Shown here: positions 1 to 46,744 of the stretch, piece after piece | Numbering within the stretch: position 1 is the stretch's first letter | How the letters are laid out: each line of letters starts with the position of its first letter | Virus record (IMG/VR): IMGVR_UViG_3300033148_006239 | Location: 1-64,000 of that record | Direction: 5' to 3' (one strand) | Source of the DNA: a virus | DNA length: 64,000 bases | Made by a program: the position numbers and the translations under genes | The notes under the pieces: model-generated | What the model saw: only the letters and a program-made list of their open reading frames with translations | Told to the model about the DNA's origin: nothing | Databases searched by the model: none

Positions 1-12
1 ATTCTTTTTCAT
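1..12 (-). CDS. 5' end of a leftward gene, cut by the window edge
   Basis: Read on the minus strand, an ATG at 12-10 is preceded by GGAGGAAAAT (13-22), the same SD spelling used by the early rightward genes. Only four codons (M-K-K-N) are inside the window, so nothing can be said about function. It makes the first 2 kb a divergent intergenic region. The entire upstream region of this gene out to 485 has no C on its sense strand. Confidence 0.55.
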
Positions 13-485
13 ATTTTCCTCCAAAACATTTTAAATCCTCACTTTATCCCATCACACCCACAATCAAATCCTTTTTTTAACCTCCATCCATAAACATAAT
101 AAAACATATTAAAAAAATCAACCTTATTTAAAAAAAAATACTCTTTTTTCAACAAAAACACTAAATCTTCACAACCTTACTATTTTATCACAACTTTAAC
201 ACATAATCTTCACTAAATCTTCACATTCTATCAAAAAAAATTTTTTTTAATTTTATAAAAAATTAAAAACTCAATATAATTCAAAATACTTCCAACATCT
301 CAAACACACCCTACCACCTCTCTACATCCATCCCTCAAATAACCCTACCACCACAAACCATCCTACACTTCAAATAACCATCCCTTTATTATCTCAACAT
401 TTTATCTTAAAATTACCTACATATCAACTTTTTATCACATCTACCTCTTAATTATATCCAAATCTAATACTTACCATAAAAAATC
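1..485. other. 485-base tract with no G on the + strand
   Basis: Every base from 1 to 485 is A, C or T; the first G is at 486. C is common and runs of A and T occur, so this is not a homopolymer. Read leftward it is a C-free leader of the gene starting at 12, so that RNA could form no G-C pair. No ORF or known signal was seen apart from the SD and start at 10-22. The boundary at 486 is abrupt. An origin, a packaging signal, an unstructured leader or a base-conversion event are all possible. Confidence 0.9.
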
Positions 486-910
486 GCCGTACGAAACACG
501 ACAGAAGCGATTTCGGTCATCAATCATCTCGAATAGTTTTCTTACCATGACTCTAACCACGCCGATTGAAGCGTGATTGATTACAGTTCAGATCTCTATC
601 TATCTCTAACCAATCTCTAACCGTCGCAATCTGATCAATTCATGCCATTTCGGATTTCTGTCAATCTGATAAAAGATAGAAACTAAGAATATATTAGTTT
701 CTTGATTGAAAAAAGTACTTTTATATGAAGTTAGAACAAAAAATCATTCAAAAAGACAGAAAATAGAAATTAAATTCGTATCGTGACTAAAGAATTAATT
801 ACTTTTCTGTCAAAAAGACTGATTTTAAAACGCTTTTGTATAGGGTAGATAAAAACTATCATTTCAACAACAATTCTTTAGAAAATAATATGAATTATAT
901 GTTTCAATGC

Positions 911-1026
911 GCCGAAATGAGTCAAATGACCGCTTTTCGAGCGAAGAAATGACCGTTTTCGGCACAGAAATGATAAAAACACGTCGAAAATGACTCAAAT
1001 CCGCTCTTTTTGATCGAAAATGAACC
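911..1026 (+). repeat. Imperfect ~43-base direct repeat pair with GAAATGA iterons
   Basis: The stretch 911-955 recurs at 982-1026: both run C-G-x-CGAAA(A)TGA, then G/C-TCAAAT, then CCGCT-TTT, then CGA, then a second GAAA(A)TGA and CC. A further copy of the core lies between them. The core GAAATGA or GAAAATGA starts at 914, 946, 967, 986 and 1016. Such spaced short repeats are typical of protein-binding iterons near replication origins. A leftward frame across 864-1076 looks like a by-product of the repeat. Confidence 0.55.
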
Positions 1027-1255
1027 CAGACAGCATGAAACCAAGACTTTTGATACGAAATTGATATAAATATCAAAAATCGATCAAATTAATGGAAAAC
1101 CGTGATTAGAAGTACTGATCAAGACAAGAATCAGATATATAAAGAGCGCCGTTTGCAGTCAGATTATATATCATTTTCTGTGCTTTTACTTATACTTATC
1201 TATTCCTCTATTCTTATATAGATTATGAAGAAGTCTATGGAGGTAACTAAAGAAT

Positions 1256-1405
1256 ATGATTAGAATGATTACCTTTCAAATGACTTCCTTTCTTTTCATA
1301 TTTTTTGCGATCTCGGAGAGTTCCATTGCAAGATTTGATATATATATTACGTTTCTTTATGACCGAAGACTAATGAATGGTTTACTTCGTTTCTATCTAG
1401 ACTGA
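1256..1405 (+). CDS. Candidate 49-residue hydrophobic protein (doubtful)
   Basis: ATG at 1256, with GGAGG ending 12 bases upstream (rather far) and stop TGA at 1403. The first 20 residues are hydrophobic with Phe-rich character, like a signal or membrane segment, followed by a basic tail. No family is recognised. Codon use includes CGA and other codons unlike the downstream genes. It could equally be a chance frame in the control region. Confidence 0.2.
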   Translation: MIRMITFQMTSFLFIFFAISESSIARFDIYITFLYDRRLMNGLLRFYLD

Positions 1406-1426
1406 TTCTATTATAAATATTAAATC

Positions 1427-1483
1427 GATTCAATTTGATAAGATCATTAAATCGTTCACTATATCGATCTTATTAATTGAATC
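1427..1483. repeat. Imperfect inverted repeat
   Basis: The arm 1427-1445 (GATTCAATTTGATAAGATC) pairs with 1466-1483 (GATCTTATTAATTGAATC) apart from one small mismatch/bulge. The spacer is 20 bases. It directly follows the stop of the doubtful 1256-1405 ORF and has no T-run after it, so a protein-binding dyad or cruciform is as likely as a terminator. Confidence 0.5.
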
Positions 1484-1604
1484 AAATAATATCTAAAGAA
1501 ATAACAATTGATCAAATGACTGATAGAACCTATATCTATCTTATGATTATTTTTTTTATTTTTTTAATTCTTTTGGGAAACTGGTATTTTCTTTATTAAT
1601 CTAT

Positions 1605-1620
1605 TTTATTATATTTATAT
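1605..1620 (+). promoter_or_regulatory. Possible promoter related to the early consensus
   Basis: TTTATTATATTTATAT resembles the TTTATTATATTATAAATA element found before other early genes (4387, 5348, 6136, 9731). It lies about 360 bases upstream of the first solid rightward gene and could drive that operon. There is no GCCTATTT box ahead of it as at 5325 and 9708, so support is weaker. Confidence 0.25.
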
Positions 1621-1659
1621 TATAATTTTTATTTATTAATTTAATAAATAAAAATTATA
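1621..1659. repeat. Perfect 19-bp AT-only inverted repeat
   Basis: Arms 1621-1639 and 1641-1659 are exact reverse complements with a single T between them. No G or C is present. It overlaps the stop codon of the doubtful leftward ORF 1636-1779. The near-zero spacer suggests a DNA-level dyad (protein site or cruciform) rather than a classical terminator. Confidence 0.7.
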
Positions 1660-1779
1660 AAGAATTGGGGTTCCATATCCATCATCCCCGTTAGAGCCAA
1701 AGAAAGTGGTAGATTCGAAAGGATATCGATCTTTATATAAGAATGCTAAATCCTGTTCGGAACGTACAAGAGCCTCCAT
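1636..1779 (-). CDS. Candidate 47-residue protein (doubtful)
   Basis: The frame begins at ATG 1779, whose A overlaps the TGA of a two-codon ORF (ATG at 1787) that carries the strong SD GGAGGAGAAATATAT. The minus-strand leader also contains an 8-bp hairpin (1825-1845). The peptide has a mixed protein-like composition with a Gly/Asp-rich centre and ends inside the 19-bp palindrome. No family is recognised. The odd start arrangement and untypical codon use keep confidence low. Confidence 0.25.
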   Translation of the reverse strand: MEALVRSEQDLAFLYKDRYPFESTTFFGSNGDDGYGTPILYNFYLLN

Positions 1780-1824
1780 CAGGTCATATATATTTCTCCT
1801 CCAAAAATATTCTGGTCGGGGGAG

Positions 1825-1845
1825 GGAACTAATTCTATTAGTTCC
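1825..1845. repeat. 8-bp hairpin, loop of 5
   Basis: GGAACTAA (1825-1832) pairs exactly with TTAGTTCC (1838-1845). On the minus strand it would sit in the leader of the doubtful 1636-1779 ORF. On the plus strand it is followed by a T-rich stretch and could be a weak terminator. Confidence 0.5.
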
Positions 1846-1890
1846 TTCCTTTGATTAGTTTATTTAATATATTTCTAGTGTTTCAATATG

Positions 1891-1979
1891 GATCTCCTGA
1901 TCACAGGATCTTTTGATTCAGAAGATCGTTTAGTTCAGGAGGTCTTTATGGGAACATTAGCTTCCCATGGAGGAAAATT
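1891..1979 (+). promoter_or_regulatory. Leader 1: two hairpins before the first early gene
   Basis: An outer hairpin (GATC-CCTG at 1891-1899 with CAGGATC at 1904-1910, one bulge) is followed by ATGGGAA (1948-1954) pairing exactly with TTCCCAT (1962-1968). The SD GGAGG at 1969 abuts the stem and ATG follows at 1980. It belongs to the leader family at 2481, 2787, 3503 and 3860. It differs in carrying a small reading frame inside the second hairpin. Confidence 0.6.
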
Positions 1980-5573: not shown

Positions 5574-5614
5574 CCGATTGTTAATCGGAACCATTAATTT
5601 TATTGGAGAAAATT

Positions 5615-6052
5615 ATGAAAAAGAAAAACACAGTAATCAAAGAAGAAGCAGTCAAAAAAACTGCTCCTGTAGTAATTGACAAGCCAAAAACTAAAACAAT
5701 TACAAAACCTGCTCAGAAAGAAGTAATCGTAAAAAAGAACAAAAAGAACAAAGCTTCTAAAGAGCAGATTCAACAAATTTGGACAACAATCCAAACTCAG
5801 ATTGATGAAAACATTAATAAAGGTAAAGAAATCAATTCTGAAATTAAAAATTCAATTGCTGAACAATTACACAAAACGATAAAGGTATATCCTAATCAAG
5901 GATATTATCTTTATTACATCAACAAATATGTCAACGGTGACATTCCAATCAATCAAAGCAAAAATGGTGTAGCCTTAGATAAAGATGCACAGAAAAAGCA
6001 AGTCACTACCCAAATTGAATCTCTCAAAACACAACTTGGAAAATTAAAATAA
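5615..6052 (+). CDS. Lys-rich protein with helical domain
   Basis: 145 residues starting at the ATG 8 bases after TTGGAG; an earlier TTG at 5603 is rejected. The first ~50 residues are Lys-rich and probably disordered (K-K-N-K-K-N-K). The rest is predominantly helical with a Tyr-rich centre (YPNQGYYLYYINKY) and a C-terminal coiled segment. The basic tail suggests nucleic-acid binding. No family is recognised. It is flanked by hairpins on both sides, so it is probably one transcription unit. Confidence 0.75.
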   Translation: MKKKNTVIKEEAVKKTAPVVIDKPKTKTITKPAQKEVIVKKNKKNKASKEQIQQIWTTIQTQIDENINKGKEINSEIKNSIAEQLHKTIKVYPNQGYYLYYINKYVNGDIPINQSKNGVALDKDAQKKQVTTQIESLKTQLGKLK

Positions 6053-6780: not shown

Positions 6781-7659
6781 ATGAAAAAATTATACAAAGT
6801 TTTTGATCCAGGTTTGATCAGCCCGTATCAGAATTTTAAATACAAAAAAGATAAAGAATATCATTGTGATAATTTTGACTATGATCAGTCGGATCATTGT
6901 AGTAATGGTTTCTATGCCGTCCCTATCGAAGGATTAATTTACACTTACCGCAAAGGTAAACATGTATACGAAGTCAATGTATGGGGTGATGAAATCATTA
7001 TAGATCAATTTAAGCAACGATACGAATATATTAATATTGGTAACAGAATACCACTGAAACAATTAAAACAACTAGTCAAAGAACAATCTAATAAAATGGA
7101 TTACAATTTATATCATACAATGTTCCCAATTGATCCACAGATAGTAAATCGTAAATTAAACAATAATGATAGTAAAATATTAGAAAAATGGGATTGTGTG
7201 AGGGATTCTGTGAGGACTTCTGTGTGGAATTCTGTGAGGGATTCTGTGAGGGATTCTGTGGGGGATTGTGTGTGGAATTCTGTGAGGGATTCTGTGAGGA
7301 CTTCTGTGAGGGCTTCTGTGTGGAATTCTGTGGGGGATTGTGTGTGGAATTCTGTGAGGGATTCTGTGTGGAATTCTGTGGGGGATTCTGTATGGGATTC
7401 TGTGAGGGATTCTGTGGGGGATTGTGTGTGGAATTCTGTGAGGGATTCTGTGGGGGATTGTGTGGGGGCTTATATATCAAACCTATTTCCATGCATGAAA
7501 AAATGGAAATATATAAATCATAAGCCAAATATTAATCCATATCAGTCATGTATTGATTTATGGCATCGTGGGTTTGTGCCTTCATTTGACGGTAAAATAT
7601 GGCGATTACATCAAGGCAGAGATGCTAAAATAATCTACGAATGGAAAGCAAAACAATGA
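6781..7659 (+). CDS. Protein with long SVxD/SVxx tandem repeat (DUF7666-like)
   Basis: 292 residues. The N-terminal ~100 residues (Y-K-V-F-D-P start, 'SNGFYAVPIEG', 'YEVNVWGDEI') resemble a domain found in phage proteins carrying the same kind of repeats. Residues ~138-227 are about 22 copies of a four-residue unit x-x-S/C-V (SVRD, SVWN, SVGD). They are encoded by a 12-base minisatellite and probably stack as a beta-solenoid. The last 60 residues are non-repetitive with Trp and Cys. Function unknown. Antisense frames here are products of the repeat. Confidence 0.75.
   Translation: MKKLYKVFDPGLISPYQNFKYKKDKEYHCDNFDYDQSDHCSNGFYAVPIEGLIYTYRKGKHVYEVNVWGDEIIIDQFKQRYEYINIGNRIPLKQLKQLVKEQSNKMDYNLYHTMFPIDPQIVNRKLNNNDSKILEKWDCVRDSVRTSVWNSVRDSVRDSVGDCVWNSVRDSVRTSVRASVWNSVGDCVWNSVRDSVWNSVGDSVWDSVRDSVGDCVWNSVRDSVGDCVGAYISNLFPCMKKWKYINHKPNINPYQSCIDLWHRGFVPSFDGKIWRLHQGRDAKIIYEWKAKQ
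7188..7467 (+). repeat. 12-base minisatellite
   Basis: About 22 tandem units of the form GATTCTGTGAGG / AATTCTGTGTGG / GATTGTGTGGGG inside the 6781-7659 gene. Every unit is 12 bases, so copy-number changes keep the frame. Variation is concentrated at the first, fifth and last bases. G is locally far more frequent than in the flanking DNA. Confidence 0.9.
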
Positions 7660-20714: not shown

Positions 20715-23700
20715 TTAACCACAACTACCATCAGAATTACCACAATTTGGACATGTTTTACATCTTCCTGTTTGTTCCATCAATGTTCCACATTTACTAC
20801 ATGATTCACCAGTTTCTTTTTGAACTTGTGTAACATTTTTATCTAAATATTTCATTAATAAATATTTACCTAAATAGTCTGAAGGTGAATTAACAAATCT
20901 TAATTCATTGATACTGCTTGATGTAATTCCAGCAGGTTCATATTTCATATCAATTAATGAATTACATAATTCTTCTAAAGGAACTTCGTATTGTAATGCC
21001 TTTGATATTATCTTTGCAAGTGAATCCATTAAACCAGCAGTCGTAGATCCTTCTTTATTCATAATTATAAATAATTCTGCTAAACTACCATCATCAAATT
21101 CACCTGGAATTATATACATTGTTTGTTTATCAATCTTTACTTTATGTACTGAGGCATTTCTTGTATCATCAAGTGCTTTCTTTTTATTGCTTTGACCAAT
21201 AAAACCTTTATTATTACCAGTATTCAGTGGCTGAGTCATTTTACTTCCATCTCTGTAAATTGTAATACCTTTTAATTTACTTTTCCACGCAAACATAAAT
21301 GCATCTTTAACATCATCAACTGTAGAATCTGAACTCATATTTATTGTCTTTGAAATCGCACCACTGATAAAGGGTTGTACTGCAGCAACCATCATTATAT
21401 GTGCTTCATAGCTAAGCATATTCCCAGCTTTATCGGGTAATGAACATTCAAATACTTTTTGATGTTCTTCTTTCAAAAATTTACAATCACTTAAATCATT
21501 ATTCTCTGACAGATGTTCTAGAATATTTCTCGTATAATTTTCATCATATCCTAGTGCTTTCAATGCATTTTGTACCGAATCATTTATTAAAATTTCTGTA
21601 GTACCACTTATTAATTTCTTATACTTTATTAAAGCTAAATCAGACTCAATACCTGTCGTATCACAATCCATTAAAAATGATATTGTACCAGTAGGAGCTA
21701 TTACTGTAACTTGAGCGTTTCTAAATGTTAAACCTTCCGATGTAATAAATGACCAATTATCAAGTGCTTCGTCGTACAATTCATTATAATTAAAATCTAT
21801 CTTTAATTGAGGAAAATTTATTCTTTTGTGTTCTACTAAATGCTTCTTAAGAACCTTTCTGAAAGAAGATTTATTTTTTTCAAAATATTTAAATGGTTCT
21901 AAAAATTCAGATACTTCAGAGCTTACAGCATAAGCAGTAGACGTCATTAAACTAGTGATAAGAGATGCGATTAATCTTCCATCATCTGAATCATAAGGAA
22001 TACCTAATGTCATTAACAGTGATCCAAGATTACTAAAGCCTAATCCTAATGGTCTAAAATCTTGTGAATTTTCTTTTACTGATTCATTTGGATATTCAGA
22101 AATCTCACATATAATATCTTGCGAAATTACAAATAATTTTATAATGTGCTTGAATTTATCAATATCAAATTTATTACCATCTAGAAGTTTTATTAAATTA
22201 ACCGATGCTAAATTACATGCACTATCATTAAGAAAAACATATTCACCACAATTATGTATAATAACAAATCCCTTCTCAGATCCAGCAGCAAAATTTCCCA
22301 ACGAAGGAACAGATAAATCATAAACATCTTCACGTTTACGTTTTCTTACATAAATAACTTTATGATTATATTGTAAACATTTTTCTTTAAAATCATCCCA
22401 ATCTAAACCTTGAACTCTTCTTTTATAAGTATGACCAATAGGAGCTTTACCTCTATAGCGTTCTTTAACTATTTTATTCCATTCATTTAATTCTGATCTA
22501 TTAACTCTCTTATTTTTAGAATAATTTTCTAAAGCTTCAACCATTATATTATATAATAGTTTAGCGTCACAATCCATAAACATACCATTATTAACACCTT
22601 TCCTAGCACAATTTTCTTTCCAAAGATCATATTTTTCTTTATTCGTATTCTTCAAAATACGAATAGGATTATTATCTCCCATAACATGATCTCTAGCATG
22701 CTTTGACTTTGAAATAACTTCTAAATTATTTGGATCATCATTGAGCTTATCATGATCTTTATGATGTACATGAAATTGTCTATCACTTCTATCAAAATCT
22801 AATATATCGTTAGCAACAACTCTATTACACTTTTGTAATGGATATTCACCATCCAAAAGATTCATTCTTCTATACCCAAATTTATCAACTCTACAATAAA
22901 ATGGTGTCAAAGAATCACCTTGTTTTAAATCTTTTGCTTTTTTATATTTACCGTTCTTTAATAAAAATCTATGATCTGGTGTACAATCTATATAGCCACC
23001 ACTACCGAACCCGACTCTTACTGTTTCTGTATTAACTTTTGTTTTAACTATCTTATTGACTTTTCCAACTGAAATCCTTTTCCTATCATAAGAATAACCA
23101 TAAACATATAAATTATCATAATCATTAATAAGTTCATCAACTCTTTTCGGACCACGCGTCGTAAATATTAATGTTGATCCAGTAACACATGGATTACTAG
23201 ATTCTATCTTACCACTTCTCTTGCACGTGTGCCAATCATTAACTCTCGTATCAAAGAACAAAGCAGGATCTCCACAAAAATGTGAATATTCACAAATTTT
23301 ATTAAATACTTCTTTTGCATTCAAAATATCAATTTGATCACCAGTTGTTCTTGCCACTGTGGCGTACGTATTATTTTGCACTACTCTTTCCATAAAATCG
23401 TCAGTTACGGAAACAGAAAAATTACTGTTCTGAAAATTAACATGTTTATATGCACTATTTTTACTAGAAAAATCTGTCGAATATTCTCCTGTAGAAGCTA
23501 ATAATCTTGCTTTAATCTCTTCTTTATATTTAGCTTCAATAAATTCAATAATATCAGGATGGTCGTAGTTCAATATTTCCATTTTTGCGGCGCGACGTGT
23601 ATTTGAAACACAAATTCCTTTACCATAAATATCACTTTTATTATCTAACGACCATATAATATAATTATGACCAGAATTTATAGATTTATCATCTAAAGAA

Positions 23701-25214
23701 TCGCAATCAACTTCAACAGAATATACTTCTTCTTCTTTTAATTTTATTATTTCAATAATTTTATGATTATTTTCATTTACTGTTTTTAAAAAATTTTCAT
23801 AATCACCAAAATAATTTTCGATACTTCTTTTTAATCTTGGTACACTGTCAAATTTACCAATATATTTTAATCTATTTTTTACATATAAATCAAATGTATC
23901 TATATTTCCACCTGCATTAATAACTCTATATGCAGTATTCATTAATTTAGTTTTAGCTGTTTTATCAGAATATTTAACTTTTCTATTTTTTCCTGAAATA
24001 CTCAATTTTTCTTTCCAATTTTTAACTTTTTCTTCGTCTTTATGAAAATTATTTTTCTTATGCATTCCATTTTTTTCACCTTTTTTAGGCAAAGGTTTTA
24101 ACCATGGATGACTTTTATTTTTTACATATTCATCATTATGAATTTTTGCATGTTCTTTTTGTGTTAAAATTTGTAAATTATTTAAACTATTATTATGTGT
24201 ATTACTATCTTTATGATGAACTACTTTACCTTTTAAATCTTTATTTAAAATATCTTTACTGATTAATCTATATAGTGTATCTCTTCCTTTTTTACCATCC
24301 ATTAATCCAATTCTCATTTTCTCATCGATATTAAATGAAAATAATCTCATTCCAACTTCTAAGTCTATTGTATGTATAAACTCACCTGTTCTCAATTTAA
24401 TAGGATGATCATAACTTAAATCAAATGTACCTTTATCTGTTTTAATCCTATAGCATTGTTTGATACCTGAACACCACGCTTTAGCACTTTTAACCATATA
24501 TCTATTTTTTTTAGGATCAAAACTACAAACATAAAATTTATCTTTTGTTAATTCATCAATCCTTTTTGCTCCGTCAATAGTATAAATTTTTTGGTGACCT
24601 GGTAAACATTTACCGCCCGACTTAACTACCGCAGCTGTCTTATCGTATAATTCCATAAACGAAAGAGGACCTGATGGAACACCACCACCTGACAATTTCT
24701 CTCTAAATGATCTAATCTTACTTCTATTAGAACCTATTCCTGATCCATATTTAAATATCTTAGCTTCGTTTGCAACATTATCTATAATTGAATCTATAGT
24801 GTCTTCAGAATCAACTATAAAACAAGCACTTAAAAATCCTTTTTTATCATTACCTAAGTTGAATAATACTGGACTATTAAACATTGTAATTTGATGAATT
24901 AAAATGTACATCATTTCATTATAAAAAGTTTCATGATTTTTAGTATCAAAATATTTTAATCTGACACCATTTTCGCATAATCTCGAAACAATTCTATCAA
25001 ACATATCAAAGATTGAATATTCATTTTCTGTTAAATAAAATTTTGTTGCAATTCTAACTGCTACATCAGACCAAAAATCTGGATATTCTATAACCTTTTT
25101 ATAATTATGATCATTATCATCGCTATATTCTATTTCTTTGCTTATCCAATTGCAGAAATCTTTCTTCTTCATTATTGAAAATTTACGTGTGTAAGCATTA
25201 TTTATCTTTATCAT
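20715..25214 (-). CDS. nrdJ: Class II (B12-dependent) ribonucleotide reductase with two inteins
   Basis: 1,499 residues as translated, about 850 after removal of two inteins (residues 203-538 and 676-988). Extein features: 'FKYGSGIGSNRSKIRS', 'SGGK/TRRAAKMEIL', 'NP/CGEYVFLND', 'CNLASVNL', 'APTGTISFLMDCDTTGIE' and a C-terminal zinc ribbon C-S-K-C...C-x2-C-x2-C. This set fits adenosylcobalamin-dependent NrdJ, which makes deoxynucleotides in one subunit without oxygen. No nrdB-like partner is present here. The start overlaps a small membrane-protein gene by 3 bases. Confidence 0.93.
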   Translation of the reverse strand: MIKINNAYTRKFSIMKKKDFCNWISKEIEYSDDNDHNYKKVIEYPDFWSDVAVRIATKFYLTENEYSIFDMFDRIVSRLCENGVRLKYFDTKNHETFYNEMMYILIHQITMFNSPVLFNLGNDKKGFLSACFIVDSEDTIDSIIDNVANEAKIFKYGSGIGSNRSKIRSFREKLSGGGVPSGPLSFMELYDKTAAVVKSGGKCLPGHQKIYTIDGAKRIDELTKDKFYVCSFDPKKNRYMVKSAKAWCSGIKQCYRIKTDKGTFDLSYDHPIKLRTGEFIHTIDLEVGMRLFSFNIDEKMRIGLMDGKKGRDTLYRLISKDILNKDLKGKVVHHKDSNTHNNSLNNLQILTQKEHAKIHNDEYVKNKSHPWLKPLPKKGEKNGMHKKNNFHKDEEKVKNWKEKLSISGKNRKVKYSDKTAKTKLMNTAYRVINAGGNIDTFDLYVKNRLKYIGKFDSVPRLKRSIENYFGDYENFLKTVNENNHKIIEIIKLKEEEVYSVEVDCDSLDDKSINSGHNYIIWSLDNKSDIYGKGICVSNTRRAAKMEILNYDHPDIIEFIEAKYKEEIKARLLASTGEYSTDFSSKNSAYKHVNFQNSNFSVSVTDDFMERVVQNNTYATVARTTGDQIDILNAKEVFNKICEYSHFCGDPALFFDTRVNDWHTCKRSGKIESSNPCVTGSTLIFTTRGPKRVDELINDYDNLYVYGYSYDRKRISVGKVNKIVKTKVNTETVRVGFGSGGYIDCTPDHRFLLKNGKYKKAKDLKQGDSLTPFYCRVDKFGYRRMNLLDGEYPLQKCNRVVANDILDFDRSDRQFHVHHKDHDKLNDDPNNLEVISKSKHARDHVMGDNNPIRILKNTNKEKYDLWKENCARKGVNNGMFMDCDAKLLYNIMVEALENYSKNKRVNRSELNEWNKIVKERYRGKAPIGHTYKRRVQGLDWDDFKEKCLQYNHKVIYVRKRKREDVYDLSVPSLGNFAAGSEKGFVIIHNCGEYVFLNDSACNLASVNLIKLLDGNKFDIDKFKHIIKLFVISQDIICEISEYPNESVKENSQDFRPLGLGFSNLGSLLMTLGIPYDSDDGRLIASLITSLMTSTAYAVSSEVSEFLEPFKYFEKNKSSFRKVLKKHLVEHKRINFPQLKIDFNYNELYDEALDNWSFITSEGLTFRNAQVTVIAPTGTISFLMDCDTTGIESDLALIKYKKLISGTTEILINDSVQNALKALGYDENYTRNILEHLSENNDLSDCKFLKEEHQKVFECSLPDKAGNMLSYEAHIMMVAAVQPFISGAISKTINMSSDSTVDDVKDAFMFAWKSKLKGITIYRDGSKMTQPLNTGNNKGFIGQSNKKKALDDTRNASVHKVKIDKQTMYIIPGEFDDGSLAELFIIMNKEGSTTAGLMDSLAKIISKALQYEVPLEELCNSLIDMKYEPAGITSSSINELRFVNSPSDYLGKYLLMKYLDKNVTQVQKETGESCSKCGTLMEQTGRCKTCPNCGNSDGSCG
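22251..23189 (-). mobile_element. Intein 2 of the ribonucleotide reductase
   Basis: 313 residues from Cys676 ('CVTGSTLIFTTRGPKRVDEL') to 'GFVIIHN' before Cys989. It splits NP/CGE, the active-site loop. Block B-like 'DCTPDHRFLLKNGKYKKA' and the canonical His-Asn end are present. The HNH endonuclease 'HVHHKDHDKLNDDPNNLEV' sits in the middle. It is related in plan to intein 1. Confidence 0.92.
23601..24608 (-). mobile_element. Intein 1 of the ribonucleotide reductase
   Basis: 336 residues beginning at Cys203 ('CLPGHQKIYTIDG') and ending 'GKGICVSN' before Thr539. It interrupts SGGK/TRRAAK, a conserved NrdJ site. Splicing blocks include 'SYDHPIKLRTGEF' and 'SGHNYIIWS'. The penultimate residue is Ser rather than His. 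A central HNH homing endonuclease is visible ('VVHHKDSNTHNNSLNNLQIL'). Confidence 0.9.
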
Positions 25215-32367: not shown

Positions 32368-33393
32368 TTACCTAATATCATCAAGATCGTCATCGTCATC
32401 ATCGTCATCGTCTGAATCATCGTCATCAAGATCGTCATCATCTTCAAGATCTTCATCGTCTTCTAAATCGTCATCATCAAGATCTTCTTCATCATCTTCT
32501 TCAATTTTTACTTTTTTACTAGATTCTTTTTTCTTGTCTTTCTTTTTCTTATCTTTCTTTGATTTACTTTCAGTATCGTCGTCTTCTATATCGATATCAT
32601 TTTCTTCTTCATAATCTTTAATAATTTGTTCAACTTCTTTACTATCGAGTAAACCAAAATATTTTGCAAGATCTTTTTCTTTAAGTTTTAATTGTTCTAA
32701 TTGATCTTTGCTTAATTCAAGATTAGCTTTTATCGAAGTAATTTTAGGTACAATTTTACCATATTGATTTTGTTTTGTTGCACCTTCTTTATAAAAGTTA
32801 ATAATATATTTAACAAGATCTGATGCTTTTTTAATATGAGTAACTTCAGGATCTAATATAAATTGCTTCATACCTGCCCAATGTTTCTTAGAAATTCTTA
32901 ATTTTTGTACAGGTAATGGAAATGTATTACCATCATCATCTGGTTCAGTAGTAAAAATAGCACTCTTCTTTTCAACATTTTTACCTTTTTTATTTTTCTT
33001 CATCTCTGTAATCTCTCTGCCCTTAACACCGAGAAATATATAAGCCAATGATGCTTTAATTTCACTTGCCTTATTTTTCCAAATTTTTTCCATATTTTTA
33101 TCAGAATCTTTAAATGTTGAAGCTATCTTATATATCTTATTAGCCAAAGCACATACTTTGCACTTTCGTGGTGCATATCCTTCACCTTCTATACCCGCTT
33201 CACATGGTATAAACGTTTTCATACCATTGGTTTCAATAAAATGTCCATATCCTTCTTCAAGTTTTTTTGAAGCTAATGCGACATAATTCCTACCCTTATC
33301 GATTTGAATAAAATCTGGTGAATACTCATCATCCTTACCAGCTCTTTCCCAACTCTCATCAACTTGTTTTTCATTACCTAAATCAATAGCCAT
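32368..33393 (-). CDS. Single-stranded DNA-binding protein with acidic tail
   Basis: 341 residues. The N-terminal 230 residues contain 'IPCEAGIEGEG' and 'KCKVCALANKIY' (a Cys set that could bind zinc as in gp32) and 'LAYIFLGVKGRE'. The last ~95 residues are Lys-rich then almost purely Asp/Glu. An acidic C-terminal tail that recruits partners is usual for phage SSBs. It lies directly upstream of uvsX. Assignment is by context and tail; the fold is not certain. Confidence 0.7.
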   Translation of the reverse strand: MAIDLGNEKQVDESWERAGKDDEYSPDFIQIDKGRNYVALASKKLEEGYGHFIETNGMKTFIPCEAGIEGEGYAPRKCKVCALANKIYKIASTFKDSDKNMEKIWKNKASEIKASLAYIFLGVKGREITEMKKNKKGKNVEKKSAIFTTEPDDDGNTFPLPVQKLRISKKHWAGMKQFILDPEVTHIKKASDLVKYIINFYKEGATKQNQYGKIVPKITSIKANLELSKDQLEQLKLKEKDLAKYFGLLDSKEVEQIIKDYEEENDIDIEDDDTESKSKKDKKKKDKKKESSKKVKIEEDDEEDLDDDDLEDDEDLEDDDDLDDDDSDDDDDDDDDLDDIR

Positions 33394-34585: not shown

Positions 34586-35269
34586 TCAATCATCATCTTC
34601 GTCATCGTCATCAAGATCTTCGTCGTCCGAATCAGCATCTGAATCATCGTCATCGTCATCTGAATCATCGTCATCGTCATCTGAATTATCGTCATCGTCA
34701 TCTGAATCATCGTCATCGTCATCTGAATCATCGTCATCGCCATCCCAATCATCATCGTCATCGTCATCATCGTCATCGTCATCATCGTCTGAATCATCGT
34801 CATCATCTGAATCATCGTCATCATCTGAATCATCGTCATCGTCTGAATCATCTGAATCATCGTCATCTACCGAATCAACAATTTCGTCATCATCAAGATC
34901 ATCATCGTCAAAATCTTCTAAGTCTGCTGTTAGTTTAGGATCGTCGTCTGAAATATCATTTTCAGGTTCTTTCTTCTTTTTAGATTCTTTTTTCTTTGTA
35001 GCTTTTGGCTTAGATATACTACTTTTTCTTTCTTTTTTAGCTTCAAACCCCTCATCTTTTGCAGTCACTTTGATATAATATTCATACCAAACTCTTTCTT
35101 TACCTTCTGCTACACCTTCAGGTGGAACTTTATCAATAACACTATCAATAATAGTATCAAGATTTGTTTCACCCTTTTTCATTAATTTCAAAGCTTCATC
35201 TTTTACATTAGCAATCACAGACGAAATCTTCTTTTTTACTGTTATTTCTTTTTTCTTTGCTTTGCTCAT
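34586..35269 (-). CDS. Protein with ~100-residue poly-Asp/Ser tail
   Basis: 227 residues. Residues 1-85 form a compact helical plus beta domain ('ERVWYEYYIKVTAKDEG'), 86-105 are Lys-rich, and the last ~115 are S-D-D-D-D-D-type repeats with hardly any other residue. The tail mimics nucleic acid charge and could bind HU-like or other basic proteins. Immediately downstream of DNA polymerase. The repetitive GATGAC-type codons create long but meaningless antisense and other-frame ORFs. Confidence 0.75.
   Translation of the reverse strand: MSKAKKKEITVKKKISSVIANVKDEALKLMKKGETNLDTIIDSVIDKVPPEGVAEGKERVWYEYYIKVTAKDEGFEAKKERKSSISKPKATKKKESKKKKEPENDISDDDPKLTADLEDFDDDDLDDDEIVDSVDDDDSDDSDDDDDSDDDDDSDDDDDSDDDDDDDDDDDDDDWDGDDDDSDDDDDDSDDDDDNSDDDDDDSDDDDDDSDADSDDEDLDDDDEDDD
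34590..34890 (-). repeat. Low-complexity Asp/Ser-codon repeat
   Basis: Tandem repeats of the (GAC/GAT)n-TCA type (ATCGTCATC on the plus strand) encode the acidic tail of the 34586-35269 product. A shorter related stretch (32378-32500) encodes the SSB tail. Such DNA is prone to slippage. Confidence 0.85.
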
Positions 35270-42275: not shown

Positions 42276-42486
42276 CAATACCTGCTTTTGTTACTGTAAA
42301 ATCTAATTTAATTTTTTCAATTATTTTTTTTGGTTTAATATAAATATCAACATAATTATCATTATAATTATCGTTATCGTTTAAATCAAATTCAAAATCA
42401 TCAATAATATCTTCATCTTTTAAGTCTTGCAAAAGCAATAATATTTTAATTTGAAATATAAAAAAATCAATATTAAATTTACTCAT
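42268..42486 (-). CDS. 72-residue acidic protein, unknown
   Basis: Helix, then Asp/Asn-rich loop (D-N-D-N-Y-N-D-N-Y), then beta-strands. Overlaps genes on both sides. No family. Confidence 0.55.
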   Translation of the reverse strand: MSKFNIDFFIFQIKILLLLQDLKDEDIIDDFEFDLNDNDNYNDNYVDIYIKPKKIIEKIKLDFTVTKAGIDE

Positions 42487-43057
42487 TAGTGTATGCCTTA
42501 TAAAGAGTATCTAATATATGTTTATAATCATCTACACTCATTCCACCATAAGATAAAACATAATTAGGATGATTTATTGGAAAAACAATTGCTTCTCTAT
42601 CATTATATTCAAATATAGATTCTTTATATAATTCTGCATCAAAAAATTTAGCAACTTGTTTACCTAAAGGAACGATTACTTTTGGTTTTAAAATCTGTAT
42701 TTCTTTTAATAGAAATCTATTACCACATTTATTAATTAATCTTTCATCAATCTTATTATTTTTTGTACTGCATTTAACAATATTTGTTATTGTACATTCA
42801 TTTAAATAATTGATCATTCTTAAAAATTCTAATCCAAAACCTCCATCAAAAGCAAACGTACCATATATCCCTCTAACATTTGATGGATTCATACCAACAA
42901 ATAAGAAATTATTTCCTATATGTAATCCTTTTAATTTACCAAACCCATATCTTATATCTTCTGTATTAAATTCTTCATCGCATAAATTTTTACATCGTTT
43001 ACATGTGCATAATCCGTAATAAAGTTTGTGAATCTTACTTTTCATATTTACTTTCAT
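42479..43057 (-). CDS. Uracil-DNA glycosylase superfamily (family 4-like) protein
   Basis: 192 residues. N-terminal 'CTCKRCKNLC' could carry the Fe-S ligands of family 4. 'FLFVGMNPSNVRGIYG' takes the place of G-E-A-P-G. 'TITNIVKCSTKNNK', 'KVIVPLGKQVAKF' and 'FPINHPNYVL' (His loop) follow in the right order. The catalytic loop differs from uracil-specific members. It may excise an abnormal base or, as a relative, act in base modification. It lies between MazG-HAD and a kinase-like gene. Confidence 0.8.
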   Translation of the reverse strand: MKVNMKSKIHKLYYGLCTCKRCKNLCDEEFNTEDIRYGFGKLKGLHIGNNFLFVGMNPSNVRGIYGTFAFDGGFGLEFLRMINYLNECTITNIVKCSTKNNKIDERLINKCGNRFLLKEIQILKPKVIVPLGKQVAKFFDAELYKESIFEYNDREAIVFPINHPNYVLSYGGMSVDDYKHILDTLYKAYTNE

Positions 43058-44031
43058 AAATTACTCATTATAGTATCAAAAGTAAAAAATGGAATAATAG
43101 TATCAATCTTTTTAATTCTTTCAATATACATATTGTTATAAGGTGTTATTTTCAAATAAACATCTACAGGCATTGATTTTGCAATCTTAATTGCATTATC
43201 TGCATCGTCTTCGACAACAAAAGATACATTTTTTAAATCTTTAATTATTCTATGCTCTTTCTTTTCATCCCAAAAAATCATATCAATAGGTAAATTATTA
43301 CTTGTTATCCATTTTAAAGTATCAGAATAGATTCTACTATATTTATGATATGGTCGTGCAGTTATTAATACAGTTATATAATCTTTTTTATATAAATATT
43401 GTAAAAATTCCTTTGCTCCAGGAACAAAATCCATTTCGGCTTTAACACCTGATTGTCTATATCTATCTTTTAATATTAATTGTACTTCTAAATCAAGATT
43501 TAAAAAATCATTAAAATCAATTATTTTTTCATTAATAGAAACATTATCTAACATACCATAATTAGACATAATATTCGAATATTCATTAATCCATTTAATA
43601 AAAAAATCAGGCCAATCAGCAATAACTCCATCAATGTCAATAACTGCAATCTTTTTATTTGAATCGATATTGTTTATAAATTTTTCTTGATTATACCTTG
43701 CTTCAACAACAGTTGTTTTATTTAAAAAATTCTTATAAAAATCTTCATCATTAATTCCCCACAAATTACACAACCCAACAAGAAACTTAAATATATCAAT
43801 CAATTCTTCAGAAATATTTGATCTAATTATATCGCCATCAAATTTTCTATGCATTTTAAATGGCATTTCATGTAATAATTCACCTATTTCAGAATAAAGA
43901 TGTAAACAAAATTCCTTAGACCAAAAAACTAACTCTTCTTCAGTTAAATTATTTATATCAAATCCTTTATCTTTAAAAACTTGATTATTAAAGTCAAGTT
44001 GTTTTTCCCAAATTTCTTTTAATTTATTCAT
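43054..44031 (-). CDS. MazG-like/HAD phosphatase fusion
   Basis: 325 residues from ATG 44031. Residues ~1-125: all-helical NTP pyrophosphatase pattern ('LHLYSEIGELLHE', 'SEELIDIFKFLVGL'). Residues ~130-325: HAD domain with 'IAVIDIDGVIADW' (D-x-D), 'TVLITARPY' (motif II) and 'VSFVVEDDADNA' (motif IV). The pair could convert a (d)NTP to nucleoside: first to dNMP, then dephosphorylation. This would remove a canonical nucleotide from the pool. Confidence 0.82.
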   Translation of the reverse strand: MNKLKEIWEKQLDFNNQVFKDKGFDINNLTEEELVFWSKEFCLHLYSEIGELLHEMPFKMHRKFDGDIIRSNISEELIDIFKFLVGLCNLWGINDEDFYKNFLNKTTVVEARYNQEKFINNIDSNKKIAVIDIDGVIADWPDFFIKWINEYSNIMSNYGMLDNVSINEKIIDFNDFLNLDLEVQLILKDRYRQSGVKAEMDFVPGAKEFLQYLYKKDYITVLITARPYHKYSRIYSDTLKWITSNNLPIDMIFWDEKKEHRIIKDLKNVSFVVEDDADNAIKIAKSMPVDVYLKITPYNNMYIERIKKIDTIIPFFTFDTIMSNL

Positions 44032-44965
44032 TTCCCCACCCATAAGCCATAACGTGATCAACAAAATCTTTTAACTTATCACACAATGTGTGAAACTGTA
44101 TAGAATGATCCCATGACGCATATCTACCAAAACATTTTATATCACCAATATGATCTAAACAATGATTCTCTAAAAAATAGCCATACTTTAACGTACCATA
44201 TTGTAATATACCACTAGACATAAAAATCTTTTTAAGTATACAGACATTATCTCGATCAATTGATTCATACGTAATTGTTTTATCTTTATTATCTGTAACT
44301 CTTATAAAAGGAATATCTTTATCAGCATAATATATATAATCATAATCGTTAAACATCAAACCATTTATTTTAACAAAATATTTGCTTTTATATTCATATT
44401 TAAAATAAGGATTTACATCAAATAATTTACAAAAATCAGGAGCAGGAATTGTATTAATAATATATTCATGACTAGTTCTAATTGAATAATTATTATCTAA
44501 ATGAATTGCAACGTGATTGTTATCATAATAGTCAACACGTTCAATTAAACTGTTATAATATGTAGTACCTTGAGACCACAAAAATCTACAAATTGTTTCA
44601 ATAAATTCTTTCTGTGAAAAATCAAAATATTCAAAATTATTACCTCCCGACGCGGTACTATCATAGTGTTTTCCATCTCGTGTAATTCTTGAATACTCTA
44701 ATAAAAATTCTTTTGTTGCATAATCTTTAATTTCATCATTGTAACAGAAACCAATGTTTGTCTTTTTAACATTTTGCTTGATATTAAATTGTCTTAAAAT
44801 CTTTTCTACTTCATCAGAAACATGTAAATATCTCGGACCAAAAGCGTTCTCATATTGACCATATAATTTTCCAATTATAGTTACATTACAATTGAGATAT
44901 TGTTTTAAATAATAAGCCGTTAATAGTGCTGCAGGACCAGCACCAATAATAATTATATCATTCAT
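44024..44965 (-). CDS. FAD-dependent oxidoreductase (amine oxidase/UGM-like)
   Basis: 313 residues from ATG 44965, which puts 'IIIIGAGPAALLTAYYL' (G-x-G-x2-A dinucleotide fold) right at the start; an ATG at 44989 with a better SD (GAGG) is an alternative. The C-terminal 'IKCFGRYASWDHSIQFHTLC' recalls the FAD-contact end of UDP-galactopyranose mutase and amine oxidases. Substrate unknown. It heads the nucleotide/sugar cluster, directly after the sigma-like gene. Confidence 0.75.
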   Translation of the reverse strand: MNDIIIIGAGPAALLTAYYLKQYLNCNVTIIGKLYGQYENAFGPRYLHVSDEVEKILRQFNIKQNVKKTNIGFCYNDEIKDYATKEFLLEYSRITRDGKHYDSTASGGNNFEYFDFSQKEFIETICRFLWSQGTTYYNSLIERVDYYDNNHVAIHLDNNYSIRTSHEYIINTIPAPDFCKLFDVNPYFKYEYKSKYFVKINGLMFNDYDYIYYADKDIPFIRVTDNKDKTITYESIDRDNVCILKKIFMSSGILQYGTLKYGYFLENHCLDHIGDIKCFGRYASWDHSIQFHTLCDKLKDFVDHVMAYGWGNE

Positions 44966-45607: not shown

Positions 45608-46744
45608 TTAAATATCAATACCAGTTTCAAGTTTCACAAATTCAACTTCTGATTTTTTTTCAAGTTTTTTATGATCTCTCTTAATTGAATTAACTAATTT
45701 AATCATTGCTTTACTCTTCTTTAATCCTGCACAAATCATATACCCAGTAATTTTATCGACATTACTAGAATAGAAATAACTAACATACGAATTTGGAGTT
45801 CGAGTCATCACTTCAATTCTTTTAGAAATTAATTCTGCTTTTGTATTCATTGTATGTTTATCACTTCCCTTAGGTAAGACAATTGCCAATATATAATTCG
45901 TTGTTGTATTTATATCAAATGATCCATAATACATTGATTCTGTATTTAATTTACGTATAAACTCATCATCAATACCTTCATCCAATTGAAAATATCTGAA
46001 ATCAACAAACCCAGAATTTTTATTATAAAGTACCCTTTTTAAATCAGACATATCTATATTCGCATTATTACCACTTAAAAAGTCATAATTTGATTTAAAT
46101 GTAAAATCATAAAACATTTTTAAAGGATTAATAATGTGATAATTAATTCTATCATAATGTGTTTTCTTCATTTTAAATCTATCATATAGTAATTGATTAT
46201 CCGCAAGAATAACATTGACATAATCAATATCTTTCAAAAAGATATTTTCAATAAACCAATTAATTAATTTTATTGTATTGTTTTTTCTCTTAATACCTTC
46301 ATTCTTTTTTGGAGTTGAAATAATTACTAATATTTTTTTATTTAATTCAACCAATAGCTCAACAATAACTCTTGTAATTCCATTTCCACTACCCCCACCA
46401 CCTGATGTATAAATAATTATATATTCATCATCATCAACAATTCTTGGACCGCATATTTCTCCATCGACATCTTCATATTTTTCAAATAAAAATTTATTTA
46501 TTTTATCAATCTTATTTCTAGCTATCATTTCACCTTTATCAGGATCATTTCCAGTTCCATCTACACCTAAAAGCATAACATCTTCAATACTAAATAATTT
46601 GATATTATCAACTGCAGTATTAGATACAACAGTTTTTGTATTTTTAAAAAATTTACTATGTTGCTTTGCAAGCATAGTCCCACATTGACCATTACCAAAT
46701 ATTTTATCACTTATGGTTAAATCTAAAAACTGTTCCATTTCCAT
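45608..46744 (-). CDS. FtsZ/tubulin-like GTPase
   Basis: 378 residues. 'IFGNGQCGTMLAKQ' (residues 15-28) corresponds to tubulin's A-G-Q-C-G-N. 'YTSGGGGSGNGITRVIVEL' (112-130) is the tubulin/FtsZ GTP signature loop. 'VNVILADNQLLYDRF' is the H7 helix, and 'ANIDMSDLKRVLYNKNSG' (228-245) the T7 loop with N-x-D-x2-D needed for GTP hydrolysis. Phage tubulins (PhuZ, TubZ) build filaments that centre or move phage DNA. This one seems closer to FtsZ at T7. Confidence 0.85.
   Translation of the reverse strand: MEMEQFLDLTISDKIFGNGQCGTMLAKQHSKFFKNTKTVVSNTAVDNIKLFSIEDVMLLGVDGTGNDPDKGEMIARNKIDKINKFLFEKYEDVDGEICGPRIVDDDEYIIIYTSGGGGSGNGITRVIVELLVELNKKILVIISTPKKNEGIKRKNNTIKLINWFIENIFLKDIDYVNVILADNQLLYDRFKMKKTHYDRINYHIINPLKMFYDFTFKSNYDFLSGNNANIDMSDLKRVLYNKNSGFVDFRYFQLDEGIDDEFIRKLNTESMYYGSFDINTTTNYILAIVLPKGSDKHTMNTKAELISKRIEVMTRTPNSYVSYFYSSNVDKITGYMICAGLKKSKAMIKLVNSIKRDHKKLEKKSEVEFVKLETGIDI

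Follow-up and report, generated by a model that had tools for sequence, protein, structure and literature searches.

A phage genome tract of 2.3 kb with no cytosine on one strand, and its possible role in replication control

The tract and its surroundings

The window analysed here is the stretch of bases 1-64000 (64,000 nucleotides) of a 105,324-base virus record, IMGVR_UViG_3300033148_006239. Over its first 485 positions the + strand lacks G altogether, the first G being at 486. Direct counting confirmed this observation of an earlier note on the same DNA, and the leftward ribosome-binding site and start codon that it described are present as CCTCC (the Shine-Dalgarno complement) at 18-22 and CAT at 10-12. 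However, positions 1-485 are merely the right-hand end of a larger feature: to the left of the window the G-free run goes on into the record end, and G content is not restored there. Record bases 105211-105324 are an exact repeat of 1-114 (114 bases, compared base for base), which implies that the map closes to about 105,210 bp. This overlap looks like circular closure, and we know of no usual k-mer length of 114 bp; a terminal or packaging signal, which the earlier note had listed, finds no support. With the map taken as circular, the G-free run of the + strand measures 2,316 bp (record 103380-105210 joined to window 1-485), an almost fivefold enlargement of the 485 bp first noted. The features of the window that bear on the tract are as follows:

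1..485, - strand: cytosine-free leftward strand, window part (direct count; the remainder is record 103380-105210)
1..12, - strand: opening four codons of ORF1, a 141-aa gene whose remainder is record 104797-105210 (from sequence)
18..22, - strand: Shine-Dalgarno sequence GGAGG, 5 bases before the ORF1 ATG (from sequence)
23..485, - strand: cytosine-free leader ahead of ORF1, with G 27%, T 41% and A 33% (sequence and composition count)
234..247, no strand: A7T7 palindrome (from sequence; the record has only two others, at 104138 and 104377)
399..427, - strand: sigma-70-like promoter match TTGATA-17-TAAAAT, inside the tract (motif match)
485..503, - strand: terminator-like hairpin with a T6 run after it, placed precisely on the right boundary of the tract (predicted folding not above that of shuffles)
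486..1979, no strand: non-coding flank preceding the first rightward gene, ordinary and balanced in composition (composition count)
5612..6052, + strand: early gene, ordinary in composition, with a protein weakly related to that of ORF1 (VY..YYLYYIN in both; protein comparison)

The leftward strand of the tract is composed of two parts, namely a 1,670-bp part made of A, G and T (record 104026 to window 485) and a 646-bp part made of A and T only (record 103380-104025). The sole exception in the latter is one G on the leftward strand, i.e. a C on the + strand at 103658, and this part is the longest A/T-only stretch of the genome. The earlier account of a cytosine-free leader heading a leftward gene holds with respect to the leader, Shine-Dalgarno sequence and ATG, but the cytosine-free strand extends much further, spanning the leader, ORF1, another small ORF, a non-coding stretch of 575 bp and the 646-bp A/T-only part. 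Both edges are abrupt, with CCCC directly to the left and a G+C-containing hairpin-like element directly to the right. The tract sits at the divergence of the leftward and rightward gene blocks, and the GC skew of the + strand switches sign there. Three direct repeats, each of 38 bp, lie a short way to the left of the A/T-only part (record 103158-103311), the repeat being found elsewhere only in an identical contig of the same phage. In the 1.5-kb non-coding flank on the right there is a perfect 20-bp inverted repeat with a 1-base centre, consisting entirely of A and T (1620-1660). Both assemblies of the phage are interrupted within the tract, as would happen if this DNA is hard to assemble.

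Judged by its baseplate genes, the phage is a tailed, probably contractile one. Its replication genes encode a PolIII-alpha-type polymerase, DnaB, a primase, a DnaC-like loader, UvsX, SbcCD and an SF2 helicase, and its nucleotide genes a ribonucleotide reductase, ThyX, a dUTPase, a thymidylate kinase and a nucleotide pyrophosphohydrolase. The searches made brought up no close relative: the terminase recovered one identical contig in IMG/VR (IMGVR_UViG_3300033143_007280) and remote matches only in phage records, the relatives of the DNA polymerase are about 30% identical, and there was no match for the ligase in IMG/VR or for the putative tail sheath in phage records. The large subunit of the ribonucleotide reductase (20715-25214, - strand; 1,499 aa) contains HNH-endonuclease-like insertions resembling two inteins, while a uracil-DNA glycosylase-like protein (42479-43057, - strand) adjoins a dUTPase/5'-nucleotidase-like protein (43054-44043, - strand). 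A Tubulin/FtsZ-family protein (45608-46744, - strand; PF00091, E 1.7e-9) could be a partition or spindle protein. The protein encoded at 6781-7659 (+ strand) displays a long run of SVRDSVWNSVGDCV-type repeats, and the corresponding DNA has long open frames also in other frames and on the opposite strand. The protein at 34586-35269 (- strand) ends in a long Asp/Ser low-complexity tail, and its neighbor at 32368-33393 is also acidic-tailed. Lar-like restriction-alleviation domains are present in three proteins from record ~95-103 kb and window 39-56 kb, and small leftward proteins from the same regions give a weak Tad2-like (Thoeris anti-defence) match.

Coding, composition and sequence elements

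The ATG of ORF1 is at 12-10, and its frame crosses the join of the record ends. Because its strand has no cytosine, the protein entirely lacks Ala, Thr, Pro, His and Gln, and thus provides a natural example of a protein held to 15 amino acids by its nucleic acid. As all three stop codons stay available without C, open frames in cytosine-free DNA are short: simulations from the non-coding parts of the tract gave a mean of 46 and a maximum of 106 codons (n=20,000), against the 147 codons of the ORF1 open frame. In a single comparison the ORF1 protein matched that of 5612-6052 at 37% over 52 aa (E 6e-5). ORF1 looks like a real, functional coding gene. Neither its protein nor that of 5612-6052 had a match in IMG/VR or phage records, and its predicted structure is all-helical with a mean pLDDT of 47, too low for use. 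ORF2 (41 aa, record 104604-104726) has GGAGG ahead of its ATG, and its 53-codon open frame, reached in 23% of the simulations, is not above chance in length.

The A/G/T part of the leftward strand has the composition A 0.380, C 0, G 0.259 and T 0.361, while the non-coding flanks have C at about 0.15, G at 0.11-0.155 and G+C at 0.26-0.30. Hence, G+C is kept near 26% in the tract, yet all G:C pairs are oriented alike, with G on the leftward strand, where it roughly doubles. Among the purine-ending codons of ORF1 (six pairs) 34 of 89 (38%) end in G, compared with 1,248 of 8,617 (14.5%) for the same six pairs in the other leftward genes (p = 4e-8). The third base of its V and G codons is G in 10 cases, A in 9 and T in 4, whereas at four-fold sites of leftward genes G amounts to only 5-7% and T to 42-50%; T at these ORF1 codons therefore falls rather than rises. 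The early genes of the + strand have a third-position G+C somewhat above that of the leftward genes, so part of the gain of G in the tract may reflect gene class. In the non-coding parts of the tract C is down and both G and T are up on the leftward strand. The pattern of a displaced strand (C and A down, T and G up) fits the leader, but A does not fall in the 3' non-coding part.

The octamer ATCTACAC is found in six irregularly spaced copies at record 104202-104927 (0.73 kb), with six more in the rest of the record. This is above the 99th percentile of tract simulations, which is five copies for any 8-mer with at least two C; the single orientation of the copies is forced by the G-free strand. 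No initiator gene was identified to go with these repeats beside the A/T-rich segment. A 35-bp element also occurs twice in the tract (94%). A simple or tandem repeat as cause of the tract was rejected, since the A/C/T part has only short scattered repeats. The A/T-only part lies downstream of leftward promoter-like matches, and promoter-like matches in this region are themselves not above chance. Likewise, an ECF-type promoter at 490-514 was discarded as the match count was not above shuffles. No structured RNA was recovered by Rfam at the gathering threshold over record 102000-105324 (including window 1-114), and no DnaA-type box (TTWTNCACA) is present in the tract or its flanks. In terms of duplex stability the A/T-only part stands at -0.83 kcal/mol per bp versus -1.1 to -1.2 nearby, and RNA of the A/G/T part folds less than its neighbors (-9.5 versus -14 to -17 kcal/mol per 100 nt). 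G-quadruplexes or G clusters offered nothing special, the clusters not being enriched in the tract. R-loop energetics also failed as a sufficient cause: the best hybrid-favouring 1-kb windows lie outside the tract, and within it only ORF1 is favourable, so that RNA:DNA hybrid energy does not single it out.

Rarity of complete base exclusion

Outside the tract G constitutes 10.9% of the + strand, and under independent draws a G-free run of 2,316 bp has a log10 P of about -116. In order-3 Markov simulations of 103 kb the longest G-free run had a mean of 88 and a maximum of 116, and the second-longest real run in the window is 90. For comparison, other genomes were surveyed for G-free 200-mers without an anchor, in groups picked by genome availability, which makes the result a yardstick rather than a census. 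Such 200-mers were present in 19 of 150 Campylobacterota, 4 of 200 Bacillota and one of eight assorted genomes, and none was detected on either strand of 44 virus records with homologous polymerases. The long runs in the surveyed genomes were mostly tandem repeats, the longest measured being a 745-bp repeat tract. Non-repetitive runs measured 201-231 bp, with one low-complexity ATC/TTC-rich run of 255 bp; across the approximately 0.8 Gb of Campylobacterota and Bacillota they were no longer than about 255 bp. Two Campylobacterota genomes (G146 and G090) have in common the phrase CATATCATAATACACAT, which lies within or heads G-free runs of 364 and 218 bp.

Anchored searches with the G-free stretch around AAAAAATTTTTTTC gave no match to that anchor in IMG/VR or GTDB contigs, and the Shine-Dalgarno-anchored stretch gave none to its own anchor in IMG/VR. 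Phrases on base-free tracts recovered only unrelated or short cases from the open-access literature. The statement in the earlier note that no phage element of this description was known is in line with these searches, none having turned up. As a class, an element in which one base is completely excluded from one strand, in coding and non-coding DNA alike, was without counterpart in these searches, and no known genetic element that we could find lacks a base on one strand over 2.3 kb of leader, genes and spacer.

Possible explanations for the absence of cytosine

The tract probably marks a replication or transcription control region, any function assigned to it being an informed guess. Something appears to tolerate no cytosine on the leftward strand, be it a replication intermediate, a transcript or a host defence, and the tract provides exact coordinates for telling such readings apart.

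That it might instead be an artefact of assembly or of converted (e.g. bisulfite-like) reads, as the earlier note had considered in respect of assembly, is very unlikely. It is true that both known contigs of the phage end within the tract (the record at its 114-bp overlap and the identical 54-kb contig, IMGVR_UViG_3300033143_007280, at ~record 103620), and that the A/C/T part is covered by no independent sequence. Yet the 54-kb contig agrees with the record at 100% identity over 19,620 bp, of which 241 bp belong to the A/T-only part, and the remaining genome has ordinary C and G. Moreover, ORF1, with its Shine-Dalgarno sequence and weak relative elsewhere, stays open across the join well beyond the simulated maximum although every stop codon is C-free, and conversion of reads would make Gln codons stops and raise T, not G. 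Also improbable, if slightly less so, is the loss of C, with no selection for its absence, through a mutator confined to one strand, for instance an enzyme that deaminates cytosine in single-stranded DNA. Sharp edges, the restriction to one strand in the A/G/T part and the shift of purine-ending codons from A to G, the change expected of adenine deamination, are all compatible with it. Judging from base counts, the C-to-T rate in the A/G/T part would need to be over 200 times that of T-to-C, versus about 2 times in the flanks, so that an enzyme would be needed; no deaminase is among the matches listed for the phage proteins scanned, which make up part of the proteome. The retained G+C and doubled G oppose this reading, as C-to-T change alone should lower G+C and raise T, and so do the fall of T at four-fold sites of ORF1 and the uracil-DNA glycosylase-like protein that the phage encodes. 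The same compositional facts, together with the codon shift towards G, contradict, in its plain form, the strand-specific C-to-T conversion raised in the earlier note, which predicts none of them, and led to the rejection of cytosine-deaminase hypermutation in the simple form in which loss of C equals gain of T with G unchanged.

Selection for zero cytosine might act on a transcript rather than on the DNA, an explanation that we regard as possible but doubtful. A C-free RNA could be synthesized despite a shortage of CTP or its replacement by a chain terminator like ddhCTP, would remain uncut by a C-dependent RNase, and would offer no C-rich loading site for Rho. The exclusion is absolute even within codons, as expected if no C at all can be present without harm. 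The tract carries ribosome sites of its own and two ORFs, and is bordered on the right by a terminator-like hairpin; the weaker folding of the A/G/T RNA fits such selection. Avoidance of Rho would favour G as well as disfavour C, but would not require zero C, and the extra G at synonymous sites is not predicted by CTP shortage or a C-specific RNase. Further, the tract extends about 1.2 kb beyond ORF2, an extent left unexplained by transcript selection, and the best promoter match is inside it, meaning that DNA upstream of the promoter is also C-free. With comparable reservation, the tract can be viewed as a strict base-exclusion element, in which selection maintains a 2.3-kb control region, with its genes, free of cytosine on one strand as any C in the exposed strand or transcript would be destroyed or could not be made. 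If so, the phage might be evading, through sequence alone, a cytosine-targeting defence or a nucleotide shortage not yet described. Causes other than the readings discussed here retain a sizeable minority share of the probability.

The reading that we propose, with a probability of about one in three, is that the tract is the replication-control region of the phage, in which the leftward strand is exposed as a single strand. From the observed composition, boundaries, coding, repeats and position between divergent gene blocks we infer origin activity, a transcript, single-stranded exposure and a need for the absence of C. Leftward transcription would start inside the tract and cross the C-free stretch into the 646-bp A/T-only segment, which could serve as an unwinding element; replication might begin in this segment and proceed leftwards into the long arm. 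The leftward strand would then be the non-template strand, displaced and exposed. Lacking C, it could form no G-C hairpins and would present no target to any primase, nuclease or deaminase that requires C, and might thereby stay open and bindable. Primases do use trinucleotide recognition sites (PMC3290774), and a primase with a C-needing trinucleotide would find no start on such a strand, leaving the displaced strand unprimed. C would be missing from the displaced strand where a transcript or the leading strand covers the other, and from both strands in the melted A/T segment; the observed loss, which affects a single strand of the A/G/T part but both strands of the A/T part, is as expected if exposure differs between them.

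This replication-control reading is favoured by the divergence of gene blocks, the skew switch, the A/T-only stretch, the ATCTACAC and 38-bp repeats and the genes for UvsX, SbcCD, the SF2 helicase, primase, DnaB and the DnaC-like loader. Counting against it are the ordinary hybrid energy, the lack of G-cluster enrichment and of a DnaA box, the absence of visible replication-linked skew at four-fold sites along the genome, the fall of T at V and G codons of ORF1, unlike deamination, and the protein gene occupying part of the tract. Of the origin or R-loop element listed in the earlier note, the origin stands as the best guess, but the R-loop energetics do not set the tract apart.

The closest parallels come from systems with exposed or skewed strands. 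In T4 oriF a promoter, a transcript and an unwinding element lie in line, and the non-template strand is exposed (PMC3016281). The in-line layout proposed here is similar to the R-loop origins oriF and oriG, and the phage encodes T4-like recombination-replication proteins; those origins are, however, not reported to lack a base (PMC3016281), whereas the phage tract is 2.3 kb without C and has a gene inside. In insect mitochondria an A/T-rich control region adjoins a deaminated displaced strand with C down and G and T up (PMC2939890). The phage likewise has an A/T-rich segment beside a C-depleted, G/T-enriched strand, but the mitochondrial asymmetry is graded and incomplete while that of the phage is absolute and abrupt-edged, with T falling at four-fold sites of ORF1. 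Neither of these two precedents shows zero C or abrupt edges, which also weighs against the origin reading. GC-skewed R-loop-forming regions have a G-rich, C-poor non-template strand (PMC6442632), as does the leftward strand of the phage; in contrast to them, the phage tract has a hybrid energy ordinary for its genome and no enrichment of G clusters. The guanine-free leader of tobacco mosaic virus is under 70 nt. This 5' leader (PMC11861069) is comparable in that one base is absent, but it is an RNA leader without sense-strand G, as opposed to 2.3 kb of DNA without sense-strand C, coding sequence included. Finally, a Bacillota genome (G241, contig L207 1469-1699) has a non-repetitive 231-bp C-free leader that ends in a Shine-Dalgarno sequence ahead of a gene with a weak match to the Replic_Relax replication-protein family. 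Though similar in these respects, it is ten times shorter, its gene contains C and the A/T-only part is absent; the contig was rejected as a relative of the phage, the two being unrelated. This leader adjoins a G+C-rich palindrome, and it possibly belongs to a plasmid-like replicon in a chromosome.
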